From positions 1 through 64,000 of the forward strand of contig LJUY01000001.1 of NCBI GenBank assembly GCA_001304015.1: a stretch of DNA of 64,000 nucleotides. The letters run 5' to 3'. Below are positions 222 to 22,368 of this stretch, one piece after another. Source of the DNA: a candidate division Zixibacteria bacterium SM23_81. GTDB taxonomy: Bacteria; SM23-81. The notes under the pieces are model-generated. The model was given only the letters and a program-made list of their open reading frames with translations, ran no database searches and was not told where the DNA came from. Every line of letters begins with the position of its first letter. Position 1 is the first letter of the stretch. Both the position numbers and the translations under genes were made by a program.

Positions 222-604
222 TAAGATGCCGTCCAGTATCTCAACAGACGCGGCATCGACAACGCCTTCGTGACTGGAAGGATTACGTGAAGCAGGAAGC
301 ACTCAAATATTGGCCTGCTGATCAAAATCCAGCTGAAGGACCCGTTTGCCTGACCTTGATATACCTTTATGAAGAGGCAGCTCTTGATGTTGATAACATT
401 ATTAAGCCAATACAGGATGCACTTGTCGGTATCACCTTTCAAGATGATACTATAGTTACTGACGTAATAGGTCGACGAAGACGTCTTGATGGTTCATTCG
501 ACCTTACTCATGCATCTTCAGTATTAATTGAAGGGTTCGAGATCGGTGGCGAGTTTGTTTATGTCCAAGTCGGCGATGCACCGCCGCAGGAGCAACTATT
601 ATGA
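200..604 (+). CDS. RusA-like Holliday junction resolvase
   Basis: RusA-family enzymes are small, metal-dependent homodimeric endonucleases that cleave four-way DNA junctions. The family signature is visible: a D-x-DN-x2-K-x3-DAL block (DVDNIIKPIQDAL) followed by DD-x2-V (DDTIV), giving the cluster of acidic residues that binds metal. Length (134 aa) fits the family. I chose ATG at 200; an in-frame GTG at 194 is possible and neither has a strong Shine-Dalgarno. The stop overlaps the next ATG by four bases (ATGA), so the two are probably translationally coupled. RusA proteins usually belong to prophages; here the partner is another nuclease, which points to an accessory or defence role. That role is inference. 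Confidence 0.75.
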   Translation: MVPFEFLIRCRPVSQQTRHRQRLRDWKDYVKQEALKYWPADQNPAEGPVCLTLIYLYEEAALDVDNIIKPIQDALVGITFQDDTIVTDVIGRRRRLDGSFDLTHASSVLIEGFEIGGEFVYVQVGDAPPQEQLL

Positions 605-1269
605 AAAACAATATTAAAGAAGCATATGATCGGAAGCTCCGTGAAGTGGCAGAGGATTATAAGTCTCGTGGTTATGAAGTTTTCATAGAGCCAAGCCCTA
701 GCGATCTTCCAGATTTCATGGCCGGTTTCCGACCAGATCTTGTAGCTCGAGGACCAAAAGACTCCGTCGTCGTAGAAATAAAGATTGGAACAAGTATAGC
801 CGCTTCAGAACAATTCCGGGAACTAGCAAGAAGAATTCAGCAGAATCCTGGTTGGCGATTCTCTCTTGTAGTGGTTGATACGCGTCAAGAAGAAGTTACA
901 CCTACTACGGAAGACCTTATAAATCAAGAAGATATTGAAAAGCGTATGGACCAAGCAGATCAACTTATCTCATCCAAAATGTACGATAATGCTCTCTTGC
1001 TACTCTGGACTTCGGTTGAGGCTCTACTTAGACACTTTGCTATTCGTGAAGGACTTCCTCTTGATCGACTACCTACATCTGCTTTAATCAAAGAGCTATA
1101 CTCACAGGGTGTTATTTCACGAGAAGATCTTGGCATTGCTCAGAAAGCACTCACTGCTCGTAATTCTGTTTTTCATGGATTTCAATCATCAGAACTCAAA
1201 GTTTATATCAAAGACATAGCGCAATTTGCCCGACGTCTCCTTAGTGAACTCAAATATGGTAAAAATTGA
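601..1269 (+). CDS. AHJR-type PD-(D/E)XK nuclease fused to a HEPN domain
   Basis: Residues 1-100 look like the 'AHJR-like' restriction-endonuclease fold (related to archaeal Holliday junction resolvases). A PD-(D/E)XK core is visible as Pro45-Asp46, then Glu59-Ile-Lys61 (VVVEIK). Residues 115-220 are helical and end in a HEPN signature R-x4-H (Arg187 to His192, RNSVFH), the usual catalytic motif of HEPN RNases. The start at 601 has AGGAG eight bases upstream and overlaps the stop of the RusA-like gene. One chain would therefore hold a DNA-nuclease-like and an RNase-like module. HEPN domains are common in defence and toxin proteins. Substrate and trigger are unknown. Confidence 0.7.
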   Translation: MKNNIKEAYDRKLREVAEDYKSRGYEVFIEPSPSDLPDFMAGFRPDLVARGPKDSVVVEIKIGTSIAASEQFRELARRIQQNPGWRFSLVVVDTRQEEVTPTTEDLINQEDIEKRMDQADQLISSKMYDNALLLLWTSVEALLRHFAIREGLPLDRLPTSALIKELYSQGVISREDLGIAQKALTARNSVFHGFQSSELKVYIKDIAQFARRLLSELKYGKN

Positions 1270-1404
1270 ATCCCTATCTAACCAGCTCATTCAGTTGACG
1301 GCGATCAAAAAAGAATTCTTAGAAGTCAAAACAAGCTCTGGCTCGCCGAAGACGTTGCGTCGACCGTTGAGTAAACGAAGTATAGTACAGAATTGAGGAT
1401 GAAT

Positions 1405-2058
1405 ATGAATCGGCGTATAAATGAGTTTATTTCGAAGATTGATGAACTCATTTCGAGGATTGGCCCTATTAAGTCAAGCTGGTACTCAGATATTGCGGGA
1501 AGCGGCTTCAAAATGAATGCGGAATATGAAGCTGTAATGACTGAGGCAATTTCACTAATAGAAACCATATATGGACGTGGGACTCCGCATTATCAACGGA
1601 TTCTTCATTTTTACAATGAAGGCCATCTGCACGCCCTGAAGAAAGTAGAGGGGCTGCTGATTGGAACAAAACGTAATATTGAATCGGGTATACTTGATGA
1701 ACTAACTTCACTTATTCTTATAGATATCAAAAAAGATTTCCTTGAAACAGCTGCTACACTGCTCGAAGAAAGCCAAAAAGATCCAGCAGCCGTTCTTGCT
1801 TGTATCGTCCTCGAGGATTCATTGAAGCGCCTTGCAAAACGCTCGGGCGTTGAAGATGCGCAAGATAAAGAAATGGGGATTACGGCCAGGAAGCTGCTAG
1901 CAGCGAAGGTAATAGAGAAATCTACAAATCAATCCATTCAGAGCTTCAAGAATCTTCGTAATGCTGCTCTTCATGCACAATGGGATGAGGTCTCTGCAGA
2001 GTCAGTTAACCAGCTACTGGCATTTCTACCCATATTCTTTGAGAAGCATAGACTCTAG
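1405..2058 (+). CDS. HEPN-domain protein, unknown function
   Basis: A 217-residue, mostly helical protein. The C-terminal third resembles that of the preceding gene: a helical bundle closing with R-x4-H (Arg185 to His190, RNAALH), as in HEPN RNases and the DUF4145-type group. The N-terminal 120 residues are not recognised. The start is ATG 1405 because GAGG (1395-1398) lies six bases before it; TTG 1393 and ATG 1399 are less well placed. The gap from the previous gene is about 135 bases and holds a TATAGT-like box near 1381, so it may have its own promoter. Confidence 0.6.
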   Translation: MNRRINEFISKIDELISRIGPIKSSWYSDIAGSGFKMNAEYEAVMTEAISLIETIYGRGTPHYQRILHFYNEGHLHALKKVEGLLIGTKRNIESGILDELTSLILIDIKKDFLETAATLLEESQKDPAAVLACIVLEDSLKRLAKRSGVEDAQDKEMGITARKLLAAKVIEKSTNQSIQSFKNLRNAALHAQWDEVSAESVNQLLAFLPIFFEKHRL

Positions 2059-2303: not shown

Positions 2304-5300
2304 ATGAGCCTAAACCTTGCCACATTCAGACAAGCGCTTGAAAGAACAAGGAGCGTTACAGAGTTCGGAGCACTTGTAAAGGTACTTGGCTTTGAAGTAG
2401 AAGACTATCCAGTTAATTACCTAGAAGACAGAGCATCTGAGCTCCACAAACGTGTGTTTCCTGTAGCTGATGGTTTATACCGTGTTGGAGAGTATCAAAC
2501 CTCATCGGGTACGGTATCTTTCTGGTCTGCTAATTTGTTGAGTTGGGATGAACATAGCGCTAAACGTGAAAGATATCGCCGCAGGATTACCAAAGCTCTT
2601 GTGGAGCTCGAGCCAGCAGGAGACCGCAAGTTTCTATTAGCATTAACCGCCGAAGGTATTAACGATATTGAGCTCGTTCTGCCCAGAGTTCGTGCAGACA
2701 AATCTTTCGGAACCATTCGTGCTGTCATAGATCGCCAAGAACCGACTAATCATCATCTACAGCTACTTCAAGATTTGGTAATGGCACCGGAGATGAGCCC
2801 AGTCAGTACCTTCAGGCTCTGGAGCGATGCTTTCAACGTTGAGAAGGTCGCTAAGCGGTTCTATCAAGAATTTAGAGAGTTGCACCAGAGAGTTCTTGAG
2901 ACACTTAAGCGATCAAACCGCAATGTAGCAATTATTCAGAATCCCGAAAACGAGGGTAAAGTCCGCCGCTATGTGACTCGCAACCTAGGGAGGGTTCTCT
3001 TCCTTTGGTTTCTTCAGTCGAAAGGTTGGTTAGACGGAGATCATAAGTATTTCGTCAATCTATACGAGAGACGCTGCAGGGGGCGGGATGACCACAACTT
3101 TTTCCGAGACACCCTAATTCTATTATTCTTTAAGGCATTAGCCCAAGATAAAACCCAACGATGTGAAGCAGCTAAAGCACTAGGGGAGGTACCTTTCTTA
3201 AATGGCGGCTTGTTTCTACAGAGTCGTTTCGAGGATGAGTTGTATGGAGAAGATCGTAAGAATATAGAAATTGACCTACCGAACAATCTCTTTGATCCTC
3301 GCCAGCATTCCTCTGAATCTCCAACTGTCCTGGGATTGCTGCGAAGTTATCGGTTCACAACGAGAGAATCCACACCTGATGACCAGTCGTTGGATCCCGA
3401 TCCTGAGCTGCTCGGCAAGGTCTTTGAGAATCTTAATGAGGAAGGTGTTCGTGCCAAAACAGGAACCTTCTATACACCTAGAGAAGTCGTCCGCTTCATG
3501 TGCCAAGAAGCTTTAGATGGCTATCTGGCAAAAAAAACTGGCTTCACCAAAGAGGATTTCAATTGGTTACGCGCTGAAGCCATCGATCCATCTTTGAGTG
3601 ATCGGCGACTCACCATTGCTGAACGAAAAAGGATTGAAGATGCACTAGATTCAGTGACAGTTTGTGATCCTGCTGTTGGTTCGGGAGCTTTTCCAGTAGG
3701 CATGATGCAAGAGATTCTGCTTCTCAAACAGGGTCTTTTCCAGAGTACTGATGTGGTTGTTGACATCGGTGGACAACAGATGGCAGAGTGGAAGGAGCAT
3801 ATCATCACGAACTGTCTCTATGGAGTTGATATCAATCCAGAAGCGATCGAAATTTGTCATTTAAGGCTTTGGCTATCCTTGGTTATTGATGCTAATGAGC
3901 CAGTACCTCTTCCAAACCTTGACTTCCGGTTTGTAGCTGGAGACAGTCTAGTTGACCGAATCGGAACTGAGCCGCTGCTTGATAGTCTGCCCCGGCACAC
4001 TATTCAGAGTGAACTTGGGCTCGGAAATCTCGGTGCACTCCCTGCGATAGAAGAAGAGATTAGAATTTTGCGTGAGGAGTTCACAAAGACCGATACTCCT
4101 TCTTCTGCTCGTCGACTCCGTGAGCGAATTAAGAACAAACAGATTAGAGCCCTTAAGATCCAGATTGATGTTTTGCGAGAGAATCATGAGCGTGCCCTTA
4201 AAAATGCCCTAGAGAACATCAAACGACTTGAGTCACTCGGTGCTAATAGGCGGGGCTTACGAACCGAAGAAAAAAAGGTTTCGAAACTGGAGAGCAACCT
4301 GAAGTTCCTTACAGAGCTTCGGGCTAGTCTTGACCCATGGGCACCATATAAGAAACCCTTTCTGTGGCCTTTGGAATTTCCTGAAATCTTCGAGGAGGGT
4401 GGATTCGATGTCGTTGTTGCTAATCCGCCCTATGTTCGTCAGGAGTCTTTGTCAGAAAAAGACCAATTAACCTATCAACAGGCTTACTCCTCTATCTTTA
4501 AGGGCACAGCAGATTTACTAGTTTTCTTCTACGGCCGCGCAATTCAGATCCTTAGGACAGGTGGGAATCTGAGCTTCATTACTAGCAACAAGTTCATGCG
4601 TGCAGGCTACGGTGATGGTATCAGGGAGTATTTACCCTCACATCTCAAGATTGAACATTTTATTGATTTTGGAGATCTCCCAGTATTTGATGCTGCTGCC
4701 TATCCTGCTATTCTTGTTGGGACCAAGGAGGCGTCGTCAGATTGCGGAGTATGCCAGATCGCTGATCTCTCGCATGTCATTAGACGTAGGATTGCGGAAA
4801 AGAGTATCCCTGCAAACGTAACCAGTGTGCGCGAAGAGCTAGAGAATCTTCGTATTTTGCTCGATGATGCTGGCATTAAAGACTTCCCTCAACTTCTGCT
4901 TCGCAAAAGGGGCTGGATCCTTGAGGATTCACAACTGATTTCACTTTTCGACAGGCTCATGCAAATGGGGACACCTTTCGGAAAGTTCGTGAAGGGAAAT
5001 ATGTATAGAGGCATTGTGACTGGGCTTAACGAAGCATTTGTAATAAATCAGGAGAAACGAAACGAGTTGAGCGCCATGGATCCAAAAAGCTCAGAGTTGA
5101 TAAAGCCATGGTTGAGGGGGAGAGATATAAAGCGTTGGAAAGCTGAGTGGCCGGGGCTCTATGTAATCTTCACTCGGCACGGAACGCAAATAGAAAGATA
5201 CTCAGCGATAGAATCTTACTTAGAGCAATGGAAAGATAAGCTAAGACCGAAGAAGAAATCCGGTGATAAAGGACCTGGGAGAAAGCCTGGAAGCTATAAA

Positions 5301-5768
5301 TGGTTTGAAATTCAAGATAGTATTGAGTATTACGAGGAGTTTGAGAAACCTAAGCTTATATGGTCTACGATTAGTTCAGAATCTAGGTTTCTATTTGACG
5401 AAGAAAAGTACTATACAAATCAAAAATGTTATATAGTCACTGGTATTCCTTCCTGGGTTGTGCCTTTGCTGAACTCAGATGTATTTTTTGTCCTTGCTGC
5501 AGCTACTTCGCTCACTAGACTTCAAAACTATTTTTACGAATGGGAACGTAAGTATATGTGCCGGCTCCCAATCGTGACTCCACCACAAGAGATACAAGAT
5601 CGTTTATCGGAAATTGAATTGGAGCTTCGAAACTCGCATAACTCTCAACTTGAGAAAGAAGCGAATGCCATTGCGAAAGAAGTCTATGGAATATTAAAAG
5701 AGGAGTCAAAACTCCTTACACAATGGAAAGAACGACGTCGTTTTTCGAAAGGATCAATGAGGAGTTAA
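2304..5768 (+). CDS. Eco57I-class N6-adenine DNA methyltransferase (large, restriction/defence type)
   Basis: A 1,155-residue protein. The N-terminal 370 residues are a helical region I cannot name. The catalytic core then shows GTFYTP (about residue 387), SAM-binding motif I DPAVGSGAF (about 455), motif II YGVDINPEAI, and the catalytic NPPY (about 706), which marks N6-adenine methylation. A charged helical insertion separates motifs II and IV. The C-terminal third probably recognises DNA. Architecture and size recall PglX, DrmMI and type IIG enzymes, but no nuclease motif is evident. ATG 2304 is chosen over TTG 2289 because GAGG (2294-2297) is six bases upstream. The helicase gene starts seven bases after the stop, so they form an operon. 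It may protect self DNA by methylation, recognise targets, or both. Confidence 0.88.
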   Translation: MSLNLATFRQALERTRSVTEFGALVKVLGFEVEDYPVNYLEDRASELHKRVFPVADGLYRVGEYQTSSGTVSFWSANLLSWDEHSAKRERYRRRITKALVELEPAGDRKFLLALTAEGINDIELVLPRVRADKSFGTIRAVIDRQEPTNHHLQLLQDLVMAPEMSPVSTFRLWSDAFNVEKVAKRFYQEFRELHQRVLETLKRSNRNVAIIQNPENEGKVRRYVTRNLGRVLFLWFLQSKGWLDGDHKYFVNLYERRCRGRDDHNFFRDTLILLFFKALAQDKTQRCEAAKALGEVPFLNGGLFLQSRFEDELYGEDRKNIEIDLPNNLFDPRQHSSESPTVLGLLRSYRFTTRESTPDDQSLDPDPELLGKVFENLNEEGVRAKTGTFYTPREVVRFMCQEALDGYLAKKTGFTKEDFNWLRAEAIDPSLSDRRLTIAERKRIEDALDSVTVCDPAVGSGAFPVGMMQEILLLKQGLFQSTDVVVDIGGQQMAEWKEHIITNCLYGVDINPEAIEICHLRLWLSLVIDANEPVPLPNLDFRFVAGDSLVDRIGTEPLLDSLPRHTIQSELGLGNLGALPAIEEEIRILREEFTKTDTPSSARRLRERIKNKQIRALKIQIDVLRENHERALKNALENIKRLESLGANRRGLRTEEKKVSKLESNLKFLTELRASLDPWAPYKKPFLWPLEFPEIFEEGGFDVVVANPPYVRQESLSEKDQLTYQQAYSSIFKGTADLLVFFYGRAIQILRTGGNLSFITSNKFMRAGYGDGIREYLPSHLKIEHFIDFGDLPVFDAAAYPAILVGTKEASSDCGVCQIADLSHVIRRRIAEKSIPANVTSVREELENLRILLDDAGIKDFPQLLLRKRGWILEDSQLISLFDRLMQMGTPFGKFVKGNMYRGIVTGLNEAFVINQEKRNELSAMDPKSSELIKPWLRGRDIKRWKAEWPGLYVIFTRHGTQIERYSAIESYLEQWKDKLRPKKKSGDKGPGRKPGSYKWFEIQDSIEYYEEFEKPKLIWSTISSESRFLFDEEKYYTNQKCYIVTGIPSWVVPLLNSDVFFVLAAATSLTRLQNYFYEWERKYMCRLPIVTPPQEIQDRLSEIELELRNSHNSQLEKEANAIAKEVYGILKEESKLLTQWKERRRFSKGSMRS

Positions 5769-5775
5769 AGATACA

Positions 5776-8700
5776 ATGGATAACAAGTTGGCAGCGACTC
5801 ATACCTTCGTCGCAAACGATGAACTCACCGGAACTATGCTCCATGTACTAGCCTCCACTCTTGAAAAAGTAAAACCAGACAGAGTCTGTATTGCTACAGC
5901 TTATCTGACACCAGAAGGATTTCGAGCCATCCAGAGAGGCCTCGAACCGGTCAAGCATGTACAGCTTCTGCTTGGCGAGCGGCCCTTCTTCACTCGAAGG
6001 GGTCCGGGTGAAATCCTCCAAGAAGGAGATGAAGAACTCCGCGGCCCGGTTGAGACCATCAGTTGGTTTGAATTCCTTGAGGGAAAGATTCCATGGGTTT
6101 TGATGAATCACGAAGAACGTAAAAAGCTCCTTGGTGAAGAAGGCGAGGAGGCATTCGAGGCCCGACGACAGTTCAACCTAGAATCCTGGCATAAGGTTCA
6201 AGACTTGGTGAGATTTCTTGAACGAAGTGGAGTCGAGGTTCGACGGTTTCTGGGAGACAAAGTTGGAGAGGTTGAAGACGGAAAAGTACTAGATACTTAC
6301 ACAGCTCCTAACGTTCATTTGCATGCAAAGGTTTATCTTCTTAGGGAAAAGTCTGTATCATATGGTGTCGTGGGGAGCAGTAATCTCACAAAGGGAGGTC
6401 TTGAAGGTAATATCGAGGCTAATTTGATCACTACTGATTCGGGTACTACTAACCAGTTGGAGGGTTGGTTTGAACGCAAGTGGGATCAAGGTCAAGAATG
6501 CCGTGAGGAACTTATCCATCGGCTAGAAGAGTGTGTTCTTTTCGGAAGACGCTTTACTCCCTGGCAGGTGTTCCTCAAAGCTCTCCACACAGCTTACGGG
6601 CGCTTTCTTGGGCTAGGGCTCTCTGAAGGAATCGCAGATAAACTGGCAACCTTCCAACAGGAAGGCGTTAGCCGTGCCGTAGAGCTCTTGGAGAGACACT
6701 GGGGTGCGATGGTCTGCGATTCCGTAGGGCTAGGGAAAACCTACACTGGGCTCGGCATCCTTAAAGAATACCTTGCCAGACGCAAAGGAAATATCAAGGC
6801 ACTGGTCGTATGCCCTGCTCAACTTAAGAATAACTGGAGCCATGACAAGCTTCGCACATGGGGAATTCCTGGTGAGATGGTGTCGATGGAGGCTCTTCGC
6901 CAACTGGTCGATTTTGAAGAGGTGGAAGATCAGGCTCGAAAGCGCAAATTGGAGCGACGTCTTCGTCGCCTCCAAAAATACGATATTGTCTTAGTAGATG
7001 AAAGTCACAATTTCCGCAACCCAGGCACCAAGCAGTACCGGGGTCTAATGGAGGTCATGAGGGGAGGTGTGAAGCAGGATAAGCGTTTAGTTCTAATAAC
7101 TGCCACGCCCATCAACAATAGTCTTTGGGACCTATATCATCAGCTGATGCTGATCACTCGCGGAGACAACAGTTGGTACGCAGGTCGTGGTCCTGTAGGG
7201 AATTTAGAAGGAACTTTCCGCCAGCTTGAGAAAGAGGGTGGTGGACCTGGTCTCCTCAATACTATGCTTCTCACCTTAGTCCGGAGAACGCGCCACGACA
7301 TCCGTCAGCGGCAGGAGGCAGGTGAGCCGATGGAGATTAATGGAAAACCGCTGGTTTTCCCTGAACATGAGATCCCCGAGGCTCTGCAATATAGCCTTAT
7401 TGACCTTTATGGTGGCATCTATAAGGATGTGCTCGAGACGCTTAGTAACTTGAACTTTAGTATTTATAACCTGGAGCGTTACGGTATCCCTGCGGATACC
7501 GAAGATGCAAAGAAAGAGCAAGAGAGAGCGATCAAGCGAAACGAGAGCTTCATTGGAATTCTACGCACTATCTATCTGAAGCGAATGGAAAGTTCCATTG
7601 CCGCCTTATTAAGCAGCGTAAGCCAGCAGGCAATCTATCTGGATATTTTTTTGAAGCTCCTGGAAGAGGGAAAGATATTACGCCCTAAGAGCAGGGATCG
7701 GATGAAGATTATTCTCGGTGGACATCTAACGGATGATCTGCTTGAAGAACGAGGTGGTGAGGAGCGGCTCAAGAAATTGATAGAGTCTCTGCCAAAAGTT
7801 GATCGAAGCAGCTATAGGTACGATGAGCTATCGCGTGATGTAAAAGCTGATAGCGATGCACTGAGATCAATGGTTAGCAAGATTGAGACGATTCTTAAGG
7901 ATGGAGAGGGCTATCAAGATCCAAAGGTAGAGACTTTGCGCAACCTTTTAGAATCCCTGCCAGAATACGATAGGCATGGTATTCCGACCAGGATCGTTAT
8001 TTTTACCAATTTCAAGGATACAGCACGCCACATCTTTCGGAAGCTCGGCGGGCCGGATCGAGAGCAGTGGCGCCGTCAGTTCTATGTCCGGAGCAATCTT
8101 CGCAGACAACCTTGGATGTCGCTGCTCACCGGTGATGACGATCCCAACCGGCGATACAGGATCATGAGCCATTTTGCACCCTTAGCCACATTCAGAGAAG
8201 ACGAAGAGCTTGATGATCCCATTTTGCAGGAACAGATAGAACCTTTTCGAGAAGAACCTATTGACATCTTAATAGCGACCGACGTATTAAGTGAAGGTCA
8301 AAACCTCCAGGATGCACAGTTCTTAGTGAACTATGATCTGCACTGGAATCCGGTGAGGATGATCCAAAGGGGGGGGCGCATCGACAGACTATTCTCCCCA
8401 CACGACAGGGTATATATTTACAATATGATGCCGGAGAAAGGACTGGAAGACCTCCTCAAGCTGGTCAAGCGGCTGCAAAAGAGAATTCAGAATATTGATG
8501 CCACAGTTGGTCTTGATGCATCGGTTTTAGGCGAAGTGATTGAAGAGCGGGCTTTAGATGATTTAGTTGCTATCCGAAGTGGTGGGGCTGAAGCAGACAG
8601 GGTCTATCTCGAAGGAGAAAAGCGTCAGAATTTCGACGATGCTCTTGATCAGCTTCGCGTATATATTGATATGGTGCGCGAGCTTGGAACCGAAGAAGTT

Positions 8701-9363
8701 CGGCAAGTTCCAGATGGTATCTACAGTGTTAAGAAAGGCAAAAAACCAGGCGTTTTTTTGATGCTTAAGATGCCTGAAGAATTCGGTGGGCAGGTGTTCT
8801 GGAGATTCTACGCGGCTGACAAGTCTCCGGTTATAGGCTCAGCGGTAGAGATAGTTCAGCATATCGCCGCGAATCGAGATATTTTGCGGGCTGAAATCCC
8901 TGAGGGTAGGAATCCATTCGAGCAGCTAATTGAGCCTCTGAAGAAAGCAATCCCAGAGTTATCGCAAGAGTATCGACGTACACGCTCAGCTCAAGATCCA
9001 GGGAAGCTGGTGCGACGCGTGCGACAATGGCTTCAGGTATCCGAGGTTGAAGAGGCGATACCCGAATTGGCAGAGAAATTTCATAAATGGTGTGGTCAAC
9101 ACCATCCCGATGATCTGCTGCGGCGAGAAGACAGCGTTCAGGATGCATACCGGGCACTCAATGTTGTTCCGGATAATGATATGGCTATCCAAGCCCTGAA
9201 GGATCTCTGGGTCGCGCTAGAGACCAAGGGCCTCGATCGTCCTTTACCACGCCCTGATAGCCGTGAGCCGTCAGAAAAGGACCTGCAGCTGATTTGTTGG
9301 GAATGGGTGATACCAGAGTCAGGTAAAGTACCGAAATCTCCAAATGAAAGTGAGCATTCTTGA
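5776..9363 (+). CDS. PLD-family nuclease fused to SNF2-type helicase
   Basis: A 1,195-residue fusion. Residues 1-240 are a phospholipase-D/NgoFVII-like nuclease with one HxK...GSxN half-site (HAK near 183, GSSNLT near 200). From about residue 290 an SF2/SNF2 engine follows: Walker A in VGLGKT (near 318), DESH (near 408), TATP (motif III), a long helical insertion, ATDVLSEGQNLQ (motif V) and QRGGRIDR (motif VI, near 865). The last 250 residues are unassigned. GAGGAG (5758-5763) overlaps the stop of the methyltransferase gene. Pairing with a methyltransferase suggests ATP-driven restriction of unmethylated DNA. DISARM splits PLD and SNF2 functions between proteins; here they are one chain. The function is inferred from domains. 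Confidence 0.85.
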   Translation: MDNKLAATHTFVANDELTGTMLHVLASTLEKVKPDRVCIATAYLTPEGFRAIQRGLEPVKHVQLLLGERPFFTRRGPGEILQEGDEELRGPVETISWFEFLEGKIPWVLMNHEERKKLLGEEGEEAFEARRQFNLESWHKVQDLVRFLERSGVEVRRFLGDKVGEVEDGKVLDTYTAPNVHLHAKVYLLREKSVSYGVVGSSNLTKGGLEGNIEANLITTDSGTTNQLEGWFERKWDQGQECREELIHRLEECVLFGRRFTPWQVFLKALHTAYGRFLGLGLSEGIADKLATFQQEGVSRAVELLERHWGAMVCDSVGLGKTYTGLGILKEYLARRKGNIKALVVCPAQLKNNWSHDKLRTWGIPGEMVSMEALRQLVDFEEVEDQARKRKLERRLRRLQKYDIVLVDESHNFRNPGTKQYRGLMEVMRGGVKQDKRLVLITATPINNSLWDLYHQLMLITRGDNSWYAGRGPVGNLEGTFRQLEKEGGGPGLLNTMLLTLVRRTRHDIRQRQEAGEPMEINGKPLVFPEHEIPEALQYSLIDLYGGIYKDVLETLSNLNFSIYNLERYGIPADTEDAKKEQERAIKRNESFIGILRTIYLKRMESSIAALLSSVSQQAIYLDIFLKLLEEGKILRPKSRDRMKIILGGHLTDDLLEERGGEERLKKLIESLPKVDRSSYRYDELSRDVKADSDALRSMVSKIETILKDGEGYQDPKVETLRNLLESLPEYDRHGIPTRIVIFTNFKDTARHIFRKLGGPDREQWRRQFYVRSNLRRQPWMSLLTGDDDPNRRYRIMSHFAPLATFREDEELDDPILQEQIEPFREEPIDILIATDVLSEGQNLQDAQFLVNYDLHWNPVRMIQRGGRIDRLFSPHDRVYIYNMMPEKGLEDLLKLVKRLQKRIQNIDATVGLDASVLGEVIEERALDDLVAIRSGGAEADRVYLEGEKRQNFDDALDQLRVYIDMVRELGTEEVRQVPDGIYSVKKGKKPGVFLMLKMPEEFGGQVFWRFYAADKSPVIGSAVEIVQHIAANRDILRAEIPEGRNPFEQLIEPLKKAIPELSQEYRRTRSAQDPGKLVRRVRQWLQVSEVEEAIPELAEKFHKWCGQHHPDDLLRREDSVQDAYRALNVVPDNDMAIQALKDLWVALETKGLDRPLPRPDSREPSEKDLQLICWEWVIPESGKVPKSPNESEHS

Positions 9364-9661: not shown

Positions 9662-11236
9662 ATGAGCTTCTCTCCTGAGGTGCGCAAGCAGGTTCTTGTT
9701 GCAGCAGCTCGTCATTGCTGCGTCTGTCATCGTTATAAGGGAGTTAAGATAGAGGTACACCACATAGTGCAAGAATCTCAGGGAGGGTCTAACGGTTCTG
9801 AAAACGCGATTGCTCTCTGCTTTGATTGTCATGCTGACGCTGGTCATTATAATCCAAAGCATCCACGTGGCATAAGATACTCACCAGAGGAACTAAGGGC
9901 AGCTAGGGATAGGTGGTTCCAAGTCGTGCAGCAGAACAAGATTCTGACGCCTACTGACTTAGACGTTTTGTACTGCCGTTACCTCATTTGCAGAAGTTTA
10001 GGAATTCTGGAAGAAGTATGTAGGTCGGATTTTTCAAAAATACCAGTCACAAATGCTATGCTCGTGGCAAACAATGTTCTCCAATTTCAGTGTTCAATCG
10101 TTCGGTCCAATCCATATAATTTCAATATTGCTGCTGAGCAGGGAAATATCTTCCCAACCAAAGAAGAATACCTTAAAGTGAACCCAGATGCATGTGTTAT
10201 AGACAAAAAGGACTCAGAGTTTCCCTATTATGAAGCTATTAGAATTCCTAATAAAGAGGAATTTTTAGCGGAATTGGGGGACACCCACCCATTGAAGCAA
10301 AAGCTAATAAGCGGCGAAATACAAATAGAGAACTTTGCTCGGGTCCTTTTGTTTAAACAGGAATGCGGTGAGGGGACGCCCTTTTTTCAAGAGGACTTTT
10401 TCATACGTCCAATATGGACAGTTTTTTTAGCGGCAAGTAATATCTCAAATTGCTATCTCAAACTTAAATCGCTAGAAGGATCTATCGACACAGGATCGAC
10501 ACCCTCGCTTCGAGCCTTTTCTGATAGGAATTTTAGACTACGCAGTACAAAGCGCATTGAACTTCCTCCAGCTCCATTAGAGCCTGATTCGACAGTTGTC
10601 ATACCTTTACTTACTGTTTTTGGTCCATTAGGCGTTGTAAACTCATCCACCTGGTGTACTCAATCAGAGTTGTTTGATCAAGATGAAGTACGGCAAACTA
10701 GTCACATCAGCTATGAGCCGCCAGCGTTAGATTCTTTTGACTTAATTGGCCCTAGTATTCATCCAATCGGGTTCTGGGTTGAAAAAGAGGGAGCCGATCG
10801 ATTCCAGGCCATGCACGAGTTGGACTTGAGCAACGTTTATACCCTGGATAGATCATGGGCGGCTGGTAGTTGCCCTCATGTTTTCTTTTTAAATACCAAG
10901 AAGGGGATATGTGAGTACTTTGGAGAAATTTTAGTGGGCTCTCAAGGAGAGTTTGGCCAGACGACTATCAAAGTGCCTAAACAATTTGACACAATGATTA
11001 TTGTTGAATTGGAGAAAGAGGAAGCTTACATCCATAGAATACTGGTGGACAAATCTCAGGTCCTGAAAAGAGTAATCTTAAGGGAAGGTGAAACAGTTCG
11101 AGTTAGGGGCGTTCAAGGGCAGCTTATCACTGTAGAGGGTTTTTATATTTCGCATAGCCAGGATGTGCACCTTAGACCAGATCCCCGTTGGCGAAACGAG
11201 CTTGTATCAGAATACATGTATGCCAAGAGAATATAG
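9662..11236 (+). CDS. HNH endonuclease-domain protein with large unknown C-terminal region
   Basis: Residues 10-75 form a zinc-stabilised HNH nuclease domain: CxxC (CVC near 19-22), the catalytic-type HHI (near 34), an Asn-Ala-Ile stretch, and a second CxxCH followed by GHYN. HNH enzymes nick or cut DNA using a beta-beta-alpha metal fold. The remaining 430 residues are mixed alpha/beta with no motif I recognise; they could sense or bind targets. GGAGGT lies four to five bases before ATG 9662. It has its own promoter region (copy B) that matches the methyltransferase promoter, and an intrinsic terminator follows. A role in the same defence cluster is inference. Confidence 0.72.
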   Translation: MSFSPEVRKQVLVAAARHCCVCHRYKGVKIEVHHIVQESQGGSNGSENAIALCFDCHADAGHYNPKHPRGIRYSPEELRAARDRWFQVVQQNKILTPTDLDVLYCRYLICRSLGILEEVCRSDFSKIPVTNAMLVANNVLQFQCSIVRSNPYNFNIAAEQGNIFPTKEEYLKVNPDACVIDKKDSEFPYYEAIRIPNKEEFLAELGDTHPLKQKLISGEIQIENFARVLLFKQECGEGTPFFQEDFFIRPIWTVFLAASNISNCYLKLKSLEGSIDTGSTPSLRAFSDRNFRLRSTKRIELPPAPLEPDSTVVIPLLTVFGPLGVVNSSTWCTQSELFDQDEVRQTSHISYEPPALDSFDLIGPSIHPIGFWVEKEGADRFQAMHELDLSNVYTLDRSWAAGSCPHVFFLNTKKGICEYFGEILVGSQGEFGQTTIKVPKQFDTMIIVELEKEEAYIHRILVDKSQVLKRVILREGETVRVRGVQGQLITVEGFYISHSQDVHLRPDPRWRNELVSEYMYAKRI

Positions 11237-21139: not shown

Positions 21140-21265
21140 CTCAAGACTCCTGAAGAGATTTTTCATGCCCAAGTTCCCCCAGCTAACATCTGAACCTTTG
21201 ACTCTTCGGGTGTCTTGAGCGTCATTCGATGTTTCTTTGGTTCAGTTCTATTAGCTGGGGTTTTT
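21140..21265 (+). other. structured integrase leader: two interleaved long inverted repeats with terminator
   Basis: Arm A (21140-21157) pairs with 21202-21219 over 18 positions (one G-T pair, one mismatch). Arm B, CCCCAGCTAA (21177-21186) plus CTGAACC (21190-21196), pairs with GGTTCAG (21239-21245) plus TTAGCTGGGG (21251-21260). TTTTT follows at 21261. The order A-B-A'-B' is interleaved, so as RNA it can form a pseudoknot or switch between folds. Stem B plus the T-run is a good intrinsic terminator 30 bases before the integrase start. It may attenuate integrase expression, or be arm-site DNA for recombination. Confidence 0.6.
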
Positions 21266-21294
21266 ATATTCCAAAGAGAAAGGAGGTGAGAAAA

Positions 21295-22368
21295 TTGAAG
21301 GTAAGGGTCTTCGAGCGCAAAGGGAAAAAGGGCTCCACCTGGTATATCGACTTCATGTACAAAGGACGGCGTCGCTGGGAGGCTATAGGTGCTGACCGGA
21401 GGCTCGCTGAGCTGGCTGCCAAGAAGCGGGAGATGGAGATCTACGAGGGCAAGTATTTCCCTGAGAATAGCAAAACAAAAGTCAGATTCAGGGATCTTAC
21501 TGAAGAGTACATTGAGAAACACTCCAAGGTCAGAAAGCGATCCTGGCGGAGGGATATTGGCACCTTGAAACATCTTCTCCCGGTGTTCGGCGACATGTTC
21601 TTGGCCGATATCACACCCCGGATGATCGAGAACTACCGCCTAAAAAGGGGAAAAGAAGGGGTTATGCCAGCTACTATCAATCGCGAACACGCTCTGCTCA
21701 AGAACATGTTCACCAAAGCCATGGATTGGGAGTACATCCAGGAGAATCCGGCTAAGCGGATCAGGCTGGCCAAGGAGAAGGGCAGAACTCGCTTCTTGAC
21801 CAAGGAAGAGATACATCGCCTCCTGGAAGCAGCTGAGGAAAGCAAGGCACCTCACTTGAAGCCTATTTTGGTCATGGCCTTGAGCACCGGCATGCGCAGG
21901 GGAGAGATGCTCAACCTCAGGTGGGAGGACGTCGATTTCAATCGAAGGGCTATCCAGGTGAAGCGGACCAAGAACGACCAGCCGCGTGAGGTTCCCATGA
22001 CCGACTGGCTGTTCCAGACACTGTGGAGCTGGCGCAAAAAAAGTCTTGACAAAAGCTATGTTTTTGCTAATACTAAGGGTCAGCCCCTGAGGGATGTCCG
22101 GACAGCTTTCAAGGTTGCGCTCAGGAAGGCCGAGATAGAAGATTTCCGATTTCACGATCTGAGACACACGGCGGCATCACAGATGTACATGTCGGGTCTG
22201 GACATCAAATTGATCAAGGAAATCGGTGGCTGGAAGACTTTGGCGATGGTAGACCGATATTCGCACTTAACCACAGAGCACAAACGAGTTGCGATGCTGA
22301 CATACGAGAGTTTCCTCCAGCCCGACTATGTAGCAAATCTGAAGCAAATTGATGAAGTACATTCGTAA
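21295..22368 (+). CDS. tyrosine recombinase / integrase
   Basis: 357 residues. An N-terminal arm-binding region (residues 1-60, basic, 'GSTWYIDFMYKGRRRWEAIG') is followed by a SAM-like core-binding domain (about 60-150) and the catalytic domain. The active-site residues are visible: Arg in STGMRRGE, His-x2-Arg in FHDLRHTAAS, and the Tyr nucleophile in VDRYSHLT. TTG 21295 is chosen since AAGGAGGTGA (21279-21289) sits six bases upstream; the longer frame from 21229 would start inside the terminator stem. The stop is nine bases before tRNA-Arg. It probably mobilises the accessory region to its left. Confidence 0.88.
   Translation: MKVRVFERKGKKGSTWYIDFMYKGRRRWEAIGADRRLAELAAKKREMEIYEGKYFPENSKTKVRFRDLTEEYIEKHSKVRKRSWRRDIGTLKHLLPVFGDMFLADITPRMIENYRLKRGKEGVMPATINREHALLKNMFTKAMDWEYIQENPAKRIRLAKEKGRTRFLTKEEIHRLLEAAEESKAPHLKPILVMALSTGMRRGEMLNLRWEDVDFNRRAIQVKRTKNDQPREVPMTDWLFQTLWSWRKKSLDKSYVFANTKGQPLRDVRTAFKVALRKAEIEDFRFHDLRHTAASQMYMSGLDIKLIKEIGGWKTLAMVDRYSHLTTEHKRVAMLTYESFLQPDYVANLKQIDEVHS

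Follow-up and report, generated by a model that had tools for sequence, protein, structure and literature searches.

Organization of the locus

The window analysed here comprises the first 64,000 nucleotides of contig LJUY01000001.1 from the candidate division Zixibacteria bacterium SM23_81. It opens at the contig start; the source genome is a 3.07-Mb draft that is 92.6% complete. Two large genes, designated M and H, follow each other on the + strand, with 7 nt separating the stop codon of M from the start codon of H, and each occurs as a single copy in the genome (M = 1, H = 1). A preliminary description reported here a methyltransferase with an NPPY motif and a PLD-SNF2 fusion, seven bases apart; both genes prove to be intact, and Pfam matches and key residues bear out the two assignments. 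The features of M and H are:

2304..5768, + strand: gene M, Eco57I-type (gamma-class) DNA adenine-N6 methyltransferase, 1154 aa (Pfam Eco57I and TaqI_C, AlphaFold folds)
2304..2813, + strand: N-terminal alpha/beta module of M, about aa 1-170, proposed docking module for H (profile comparison)
3666..3686, + strand: motif I of M, DPAVGSG (AdoMet binding), aa 455-461 (sequence motif)
4422..4433, + strand: catalytic motif IV of M, NPPY, aa 707-710 (sequence motif, alignment)
5106..5573, + strand: TaqI-like C-terminal target-recognition domain of M, aa 935-1090 (Pfam)
5776..9363, + strand: gene H, fusion of a PLD nuclease and a SWI2-SNF2 motor, 1195 aa (Pfam, alignment, AlphaFold folds)
5776..6483, + strand: PLD-family nuclease domain of H, aa about 1-236, with H183-x-K185, N203 and E214 at 6322-6417 (PLDc_2, 2.5e-10)
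6640..7155, + strand: SNF2 motor lobe 1 of H, aa 289-460, with GLGKT, DESH and TATP (Pfam, motifs)
7990..8550, + strand: motor lobe 2 of H, aa about 739-925, with TDVLSEG and QRGGR (Pfam, motifs)

The open reading frame of M opens at a TTG at 2289; the ATG at 2304 is the better start (1154 aa), because it has GAGG just upstream. Pfam detects Eco57I (E=6e-42) and TaqI_C (E=1e-13) domains, and residues D455, A457, G459, S460 and G461 of motif I are invariant in 22 aligned sequences. The AlphaFold model of M has a mean pLDDT of 81, with CamA, M.BseCI, PglX/BrxX and MmeI as the best PDB folds. M is predicted to methylate adenine. Column pairs in the 22 sequences reveal no conserved (D/E)xK nuclease signature in residues 1-360 of M, which leaves H as the only evident nuclease.

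The start codon of H is preceded by AGGAG, located inside the end of M; like the GAGG ahead of M, it resembles a Shine-Dalgarno sequence. Besides PLDc_2, Pfam detects SNF2 (5e-13) and Helicase_C (4e-14) domains. The PLD residues H183, K185, N203 and E214 and the motor residues K321, D408, E409, R865 and R868 are identical in 27/27 aligned sequences, including that of the window. The AlphaFold model of H is of moderate confidence (pLDDT 73), and its fold matches are SNF2 and RapA motors.

Genomic setting

The stretches measured between 1 and 20,900 have a GC content of 42-49%, compared with 52.6% over 22,600-64,000. The low-GC stretch 1-22453 carries genes for RusA, a repressor, a small-terminase-like protein and a tyrosine integrase (21229-22368), the last of which ends 9 bp ahead of a tRNA-Arg gene. 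It looks like a horizontally acquired island, the left end of which has been lost at the contig edge. No att-like direct repeat is found for the island. A prophage identity was considered and is not shown: the proteins scanned include RusA and a small terminase but no structural proteins of a phage. Promoter matches occur at chance level and terminator matches at little above chance. Two small genes lie upstream of M:

601..1269, + strand: AHJR-like REase domain and C-terminal HEPN-like region with RNSVFH (Pfam search; membership in the system uncertain)
1393..2058, + strand: HEPN-like protein with RNAALH (profile match; membership in the system uncertain)

The 601-1269 protein is not seen as a recurrent neighbour of the pairs of relatives. 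It is possible that these two proteins, with their RNxxxH motifs, represent separate or backup defence genes. Just 3′ of H, positions 9662-11236 encode a 524-aa protein with an HNH endonuclease domain at its N-terminus, possibly another defence gene.

Conservation of the M-H pair

A search of genome contigs with a single sequence as query gave no match. With an alignment as query, the best 80 loci from genomes and the best 80 from viral contigs were collected, and plasmid and phage loci were added; the proteins neighbouring the H homologues were clustered, with the window's own locus counted once. As the top 80 loci by similarity were taken from each collection, the counts given below are not prevalences. 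Among the matches listed, 171 loci contain an H homologue and divide by context into groups of 78, 75 and 18. In the first group type III genes are missing and a large methyltransferase belonging to a single cluster is present; the second carries DUF4391 and/or type III Mod/Res without that methyltransferase cluster. The two contexts are never mixed among these 171 loci. The remaining 18 show neither context, and several of them are contig ends. When only listed loci without type III genes are considered, the large methyltransferase lies within 7 kb of H in 78 of 96. The linkage of M and H is far beyond chance.

The 78 methyltransferase-linked loci are spread over more than 15 bacterial phyla and also archaea, plasmids and viral contigs, so that the two-gene synteny for which the preliminary description had suggested a search does exist. 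Both gene orders occur (40 M-H, 38 H-M). M and H are at most 30 bp apart in 43 of the 77 pairs measured, and several pairs show ATGA-type overlaps. In the window no gene separates M from H, but in the closest relatives (Deinococcus, cyanobacteria) the intervening genes vary from locus to locus: DUF262 with others, a nucleotidyltransferase with SLATT, an AAA/OLD-like protein, or two hypothetical proteins. Of the earlier idea of a minimal two-gene module, the two-gene core therefore holds and the minimality does not extend to these relatives. Across the M-H loci the inserted or adjacent genes include, for example, AAA/OLD-like, AbiEii, DUF1016, GmrSD and TIR-STAND genes. Among 106 neighbours surveyed with Pfam, no family has more than 5 matches; as there is no constant third gene, M and H are the constant pair.

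Among the type III-linked loci (L007, L008, L009, L175 and about 70 others), DUF4391 and a complete type III Mod/Res pair come immediately after the PLD-SNF2 helicase. Such loci amount to a compound system that has two motor-nucleases and is frequent on plasmids and viral contigs; no description of it was found in the literature searched. The Erysipelothrix phage phi1605 record (L008) contains this DUF4391/type III version near the macrolide-resistance genes mef(A)/msr(D) and recombinases.

Co-divergence and helicase tree

For 63 pairs, the distance matrices of M and H correlate with a Pearson (Mantel) r=0.78 and a Spearman coefficient of 0.41, although such a correlation cannot tell shared descent from functional coupling, and part of it may come from broad subfamilies and shared descent. 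None of 2000 permutations reaches the observed value, the best giving 0.10. The type III-linked proteins come together in a single branch of the helicase tree (support 100), with the methyltransferase-linked ones around it. The window H groups with Deinococcus plasmid and cyanobacterial proteins (support 100; 98 for a wider set). The deep order in the tree is unsure because of quick searches and long end branches. The DrmD references, which are without a PLD domain, branch apart from the relatives of H. From the DUF499 reference loci the tree includes one usable helicase, which has no PLD domain.

The N-terminal module of M and DUF4391

One relative of M shows a weak match to DUF4391. In profile comparisons, stand-alone DUF4391 matches M N-termini from that helicase lineage which lies closest to the type III group (98.0%, E 1.5e-13, 169 columns). 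The N-termini of window-type M proteins match those of these DUF4391-matching proteins (95.7%, E 9e-9, part of this match spanning the adjoining AFDVExVTKxFF stretch) and those of a third M type (95.2%, E 2.7e-8). Compared directly with DUF4391, neither the window-type N-termini (E 0.03) nor those of the third type give a significant match, and the link between the window M and DUF4391 is consequently transitive and tentative. The economical reading of these profiles is that DUF4391 and the N-terminal module of M constitute one family accompanying the PLD-SNF2 motor. The module is therefore a candidate for coupling, and in M it may link the methyltransferase to the motor. Almost no open-access literature on DUF4391 was found.

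Comparison with named defence systems

The marker genes of the named systems that were searched for have no detectable counterpart in the source genome. There is no match anywhere in it to the DrmB marker MZB/DUF1998 (PF09369), which is detected in 8 of 14 control genomes, to the BREX protein PglZ (PF08665), detected in two controls, or to the DUF499 ATPase of BR/Hma systems (PF04465), detected in the Thermotoga control. The absence of an MZB domain from the genome also applies to the YprA-family helicase with DUF1998 of ARMADA. DUF3780 has no match in this genome or in 49 genomes with relatives, with the reservation that no control genome matched either. DUF499 is absent from 32 of 46 genomes with relatives; in the others, those matches that could be placed are distant from the locus or on a different contig. 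Beside the orthologues, no marker gene of DISARM, BREX or Hma recurs, so that neither the drmA/drmB- nor the pglZ-type neighbours that the preliminary description had regarded as evidence against a separate system are seen there as conserved genes.

Neither M nor H reaches any NCBIfam cut-off: H scores 142 bits with DrmD (cut-off 610) and M 75.5 bits with PglX (cut-off 400). The NCBIfam and PADLOC similarities of H to DrmD, PLD-helicase and DpdE are sub-threshold or partial. The best PADLOC profile for H is PDLC01075 (C3a139 'HKD+Snf2'), which matches all 27 aligned sequences. We take its label to denote a type III CRISPR accessory, with no methyltransferase partner implied. The relatives of the C3a139-matching H keep a methyltransferase or a type III restriction-modification partner instead. 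No profile searched in NCBIfam or PADLOC names M and H as one system, and the match to an already named two-gene system that had been envisaged as another outcome does not occur. The pair has escaped recognition as one system because the tools annotate its two halves separately.

The nearest published idea is that of the type-2 BREX-related (BR) systems, related to Hma, which combine an N6-methyltransferase with an SNF2 helicase carrying an N-terminal HKD nuclease and follow a restriction-modification-like logic (PMC12839542). This N-terminal HKD-SNF2 fusion is present in H, but type-2 BR/Hma systems are built on the DUF499 ATPase and DUF3780, and their helicases are set against H here by description and not by tree. 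DISARM class 1 (DrmD, DrmMI, DrmA, DrmB, DrmC) has an SNF2 helicase beside an adenine methyltransferase and a PLD protein, DrmC, that is separate, whereas in H the PLD domain is fused to the motor, DrmD has no PLD domain and the genome has no MZB/DUF1998. The Nostoc DrmD shares 24% identity with H, confined to the motor; the methyltransferase next to this DrmD is 27% identical to M over 288 residues. With PLD absent from the DrmD references and this motor-only identity, the pair does not look like a degraded DISARM. DISARM, BREX, BR/Hma and ARMADA as a group were rejected on the marker genes (MZB, PglZ, DUF499) and the tree.

In type III and type ISP systems the methyltransferase holds the recognition domain and a motor-nuclease follows (Mod and Res in type III). 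They differ from the pair in their PD-(D/E)xK nuclease and other SF2 motors, and type ISP is a single chain. M is of the Eco57I/gamma class and H is a PLD-SNF2 protein, in contrast to the beta-class Mod and PD-(D/E)xK Res of type III. This comparison draws partly on PMC5737866, where CglI is described as a PLD nuclease with a motor, having one active site per dimer and communicating along DNA. NgoAVII and CglI resemble the pair in that a PLD nuclease and an ATP-driven motor cut DNA near unmodified sites, but nuclease and motor are separate proteins, recognition is by a B3 domain and the motor is of the Z1 family. The type IV enzyme SauUSI shares with H the fusion of a PLD nuclease to a translocating SF2 motor; it dimerizes via PLD, translocates after target recognition and shreds DNA (PMC7913695). 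Unlike H, it targets modified cytosine through its own SRA-type domain and has no methyltransferase partner. The literature on named systems resembling M and H yielded BR/Hma, ARMADA, CglI, SauUSI and reviews only. A DUF499-free system of this kind is not named in the open-access literature searched; naming elsewhere is possible.

Proposed mechanism and alternative readings

The M-H lineage is real, conserved, restriction-modification-like and apparently unnamed. We consider it likely that M and H encode an ATP-dependent restriction-modification system of which they are the two constant genes. The best reading is that the pair would work like type III/ISP systems or SauUSI, and not like DISARM, BREX or Hma/BR. 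M would use its TaqI-like domain to bind an asymmetric target and would methylate adenine as a self mark. H would dock on M, probably via the DUF4391-related N-terminal module, and M would supply recognition for H, as does Mod in type III systems. Where the target is unmethylated, H would use its SNF2 motor to hydrolyse ATP and travel along the double-stranded DNA. The single HKD site of H would combine with the HKD of a second H to make up one PLD active centre; cutting of the foreign DNA would set in when motors collide or stall. By analogy with the systems compared above, docking, translocation, dimerization, cutting and phage defence are thus putative properties of the pair. From the domains and these analogues we infer the principle of marking self and cutting non-self; judged by its sequence features, the pair probably destroys unmarked foreign DNA.

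Counting against the proposed mechanism, some SNF2 motors travel along DNA yet take no part in cleaving it, and M could be able to cut on its own, since PADLOC scores it best as a type IIG enzyme (PDLC03596, E=1e-111, and up to 7e-265 in relatives, with DrmMI weaker). M would then be a self-sufficient restriction-methylation enzyme and H a helper motor/nuclease, for example for DNA clearing or as a backup effector. The size of M and its Eco57I/TaqI_C domains are indeed type IIG-like (PMC3874165), and the gamma methyltransferase fused to a target-recognition domain is present, but the N-terminal PD-(D/E)xK nuclease expected in the same chain is not found: residues 1-360 hold no conserved (D/E)xK column pair in 22 sequences, and the N-terminus belongs to a DUF4391-related domain family instead. 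As H is moreover a constant partner with invariant PLD residues, we regard this reading as unlikely.

It is rather improbable that the pair marks and blocks DNA without cutting, in a BREX-like manner, with H remodelling or stalling replication on unmethylated DNA and the PLD domain playing a minor role. The motor of H does belong to the RapA/DrmD/BrxHII type and the fold of M resembles PglX, but the conservation of the PLD residues in 27/27 sequences and the absence of PglZ and of the BrxC-like DUF499 argue against it. Least credible, and in our view very improbable, is descent from DISARM, BREX, Hma/BR or ARMADA by loss of the other genes, the pair being a relic or side branch of such a system. 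H is distantly similar to DrmD, as M is to DrmMI, and an HKD-SNF2 fusion occurs in type-2 BR helicases (PMC12839542), all of which is consistent with such an origin. However, the genome is devoid of DUF499, PglZ and MZB/DUF1998, DUF499 is missing from 32 of 46 genomes with relatives and lies elsewhere in the placeable rest, the PLD-less DrmD references branch apart, and the two-gene unit is constant across phyla.

Beyond the pair itself, we tentatively propose, at somewhat less than even confidence, an unnamed superfamily of restriction systems in which one PLD-SNF2 motor-nuclease is served by exchangeable methyltransferases via a common DUF4391-type coupling module. In most lineages this module would be fused to an Eco57I-type methyltransferase, while in one lineage, associated with a complete type III Mod/Res, it would have separated as the stand-alone DUF4391 protein, yielding a hybrid with two motor-nucleases.

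If the restriction-modification reading of M and H is correct, the tools at present break up a restriction lineage that spans many bacterial phyla and archaea, calling one half an orphan 'type IIG' enzyme and the other a 'CRISPR accessory'. The pair would constitute a new named defence system and would give DUF4391 a likely role. Switching of the motor is hard to test in DISARM and Hma-type systems because of their many parts; M and H would offer a two-protein model of an SNF2-family motor that is switched on by an unmethylated site.
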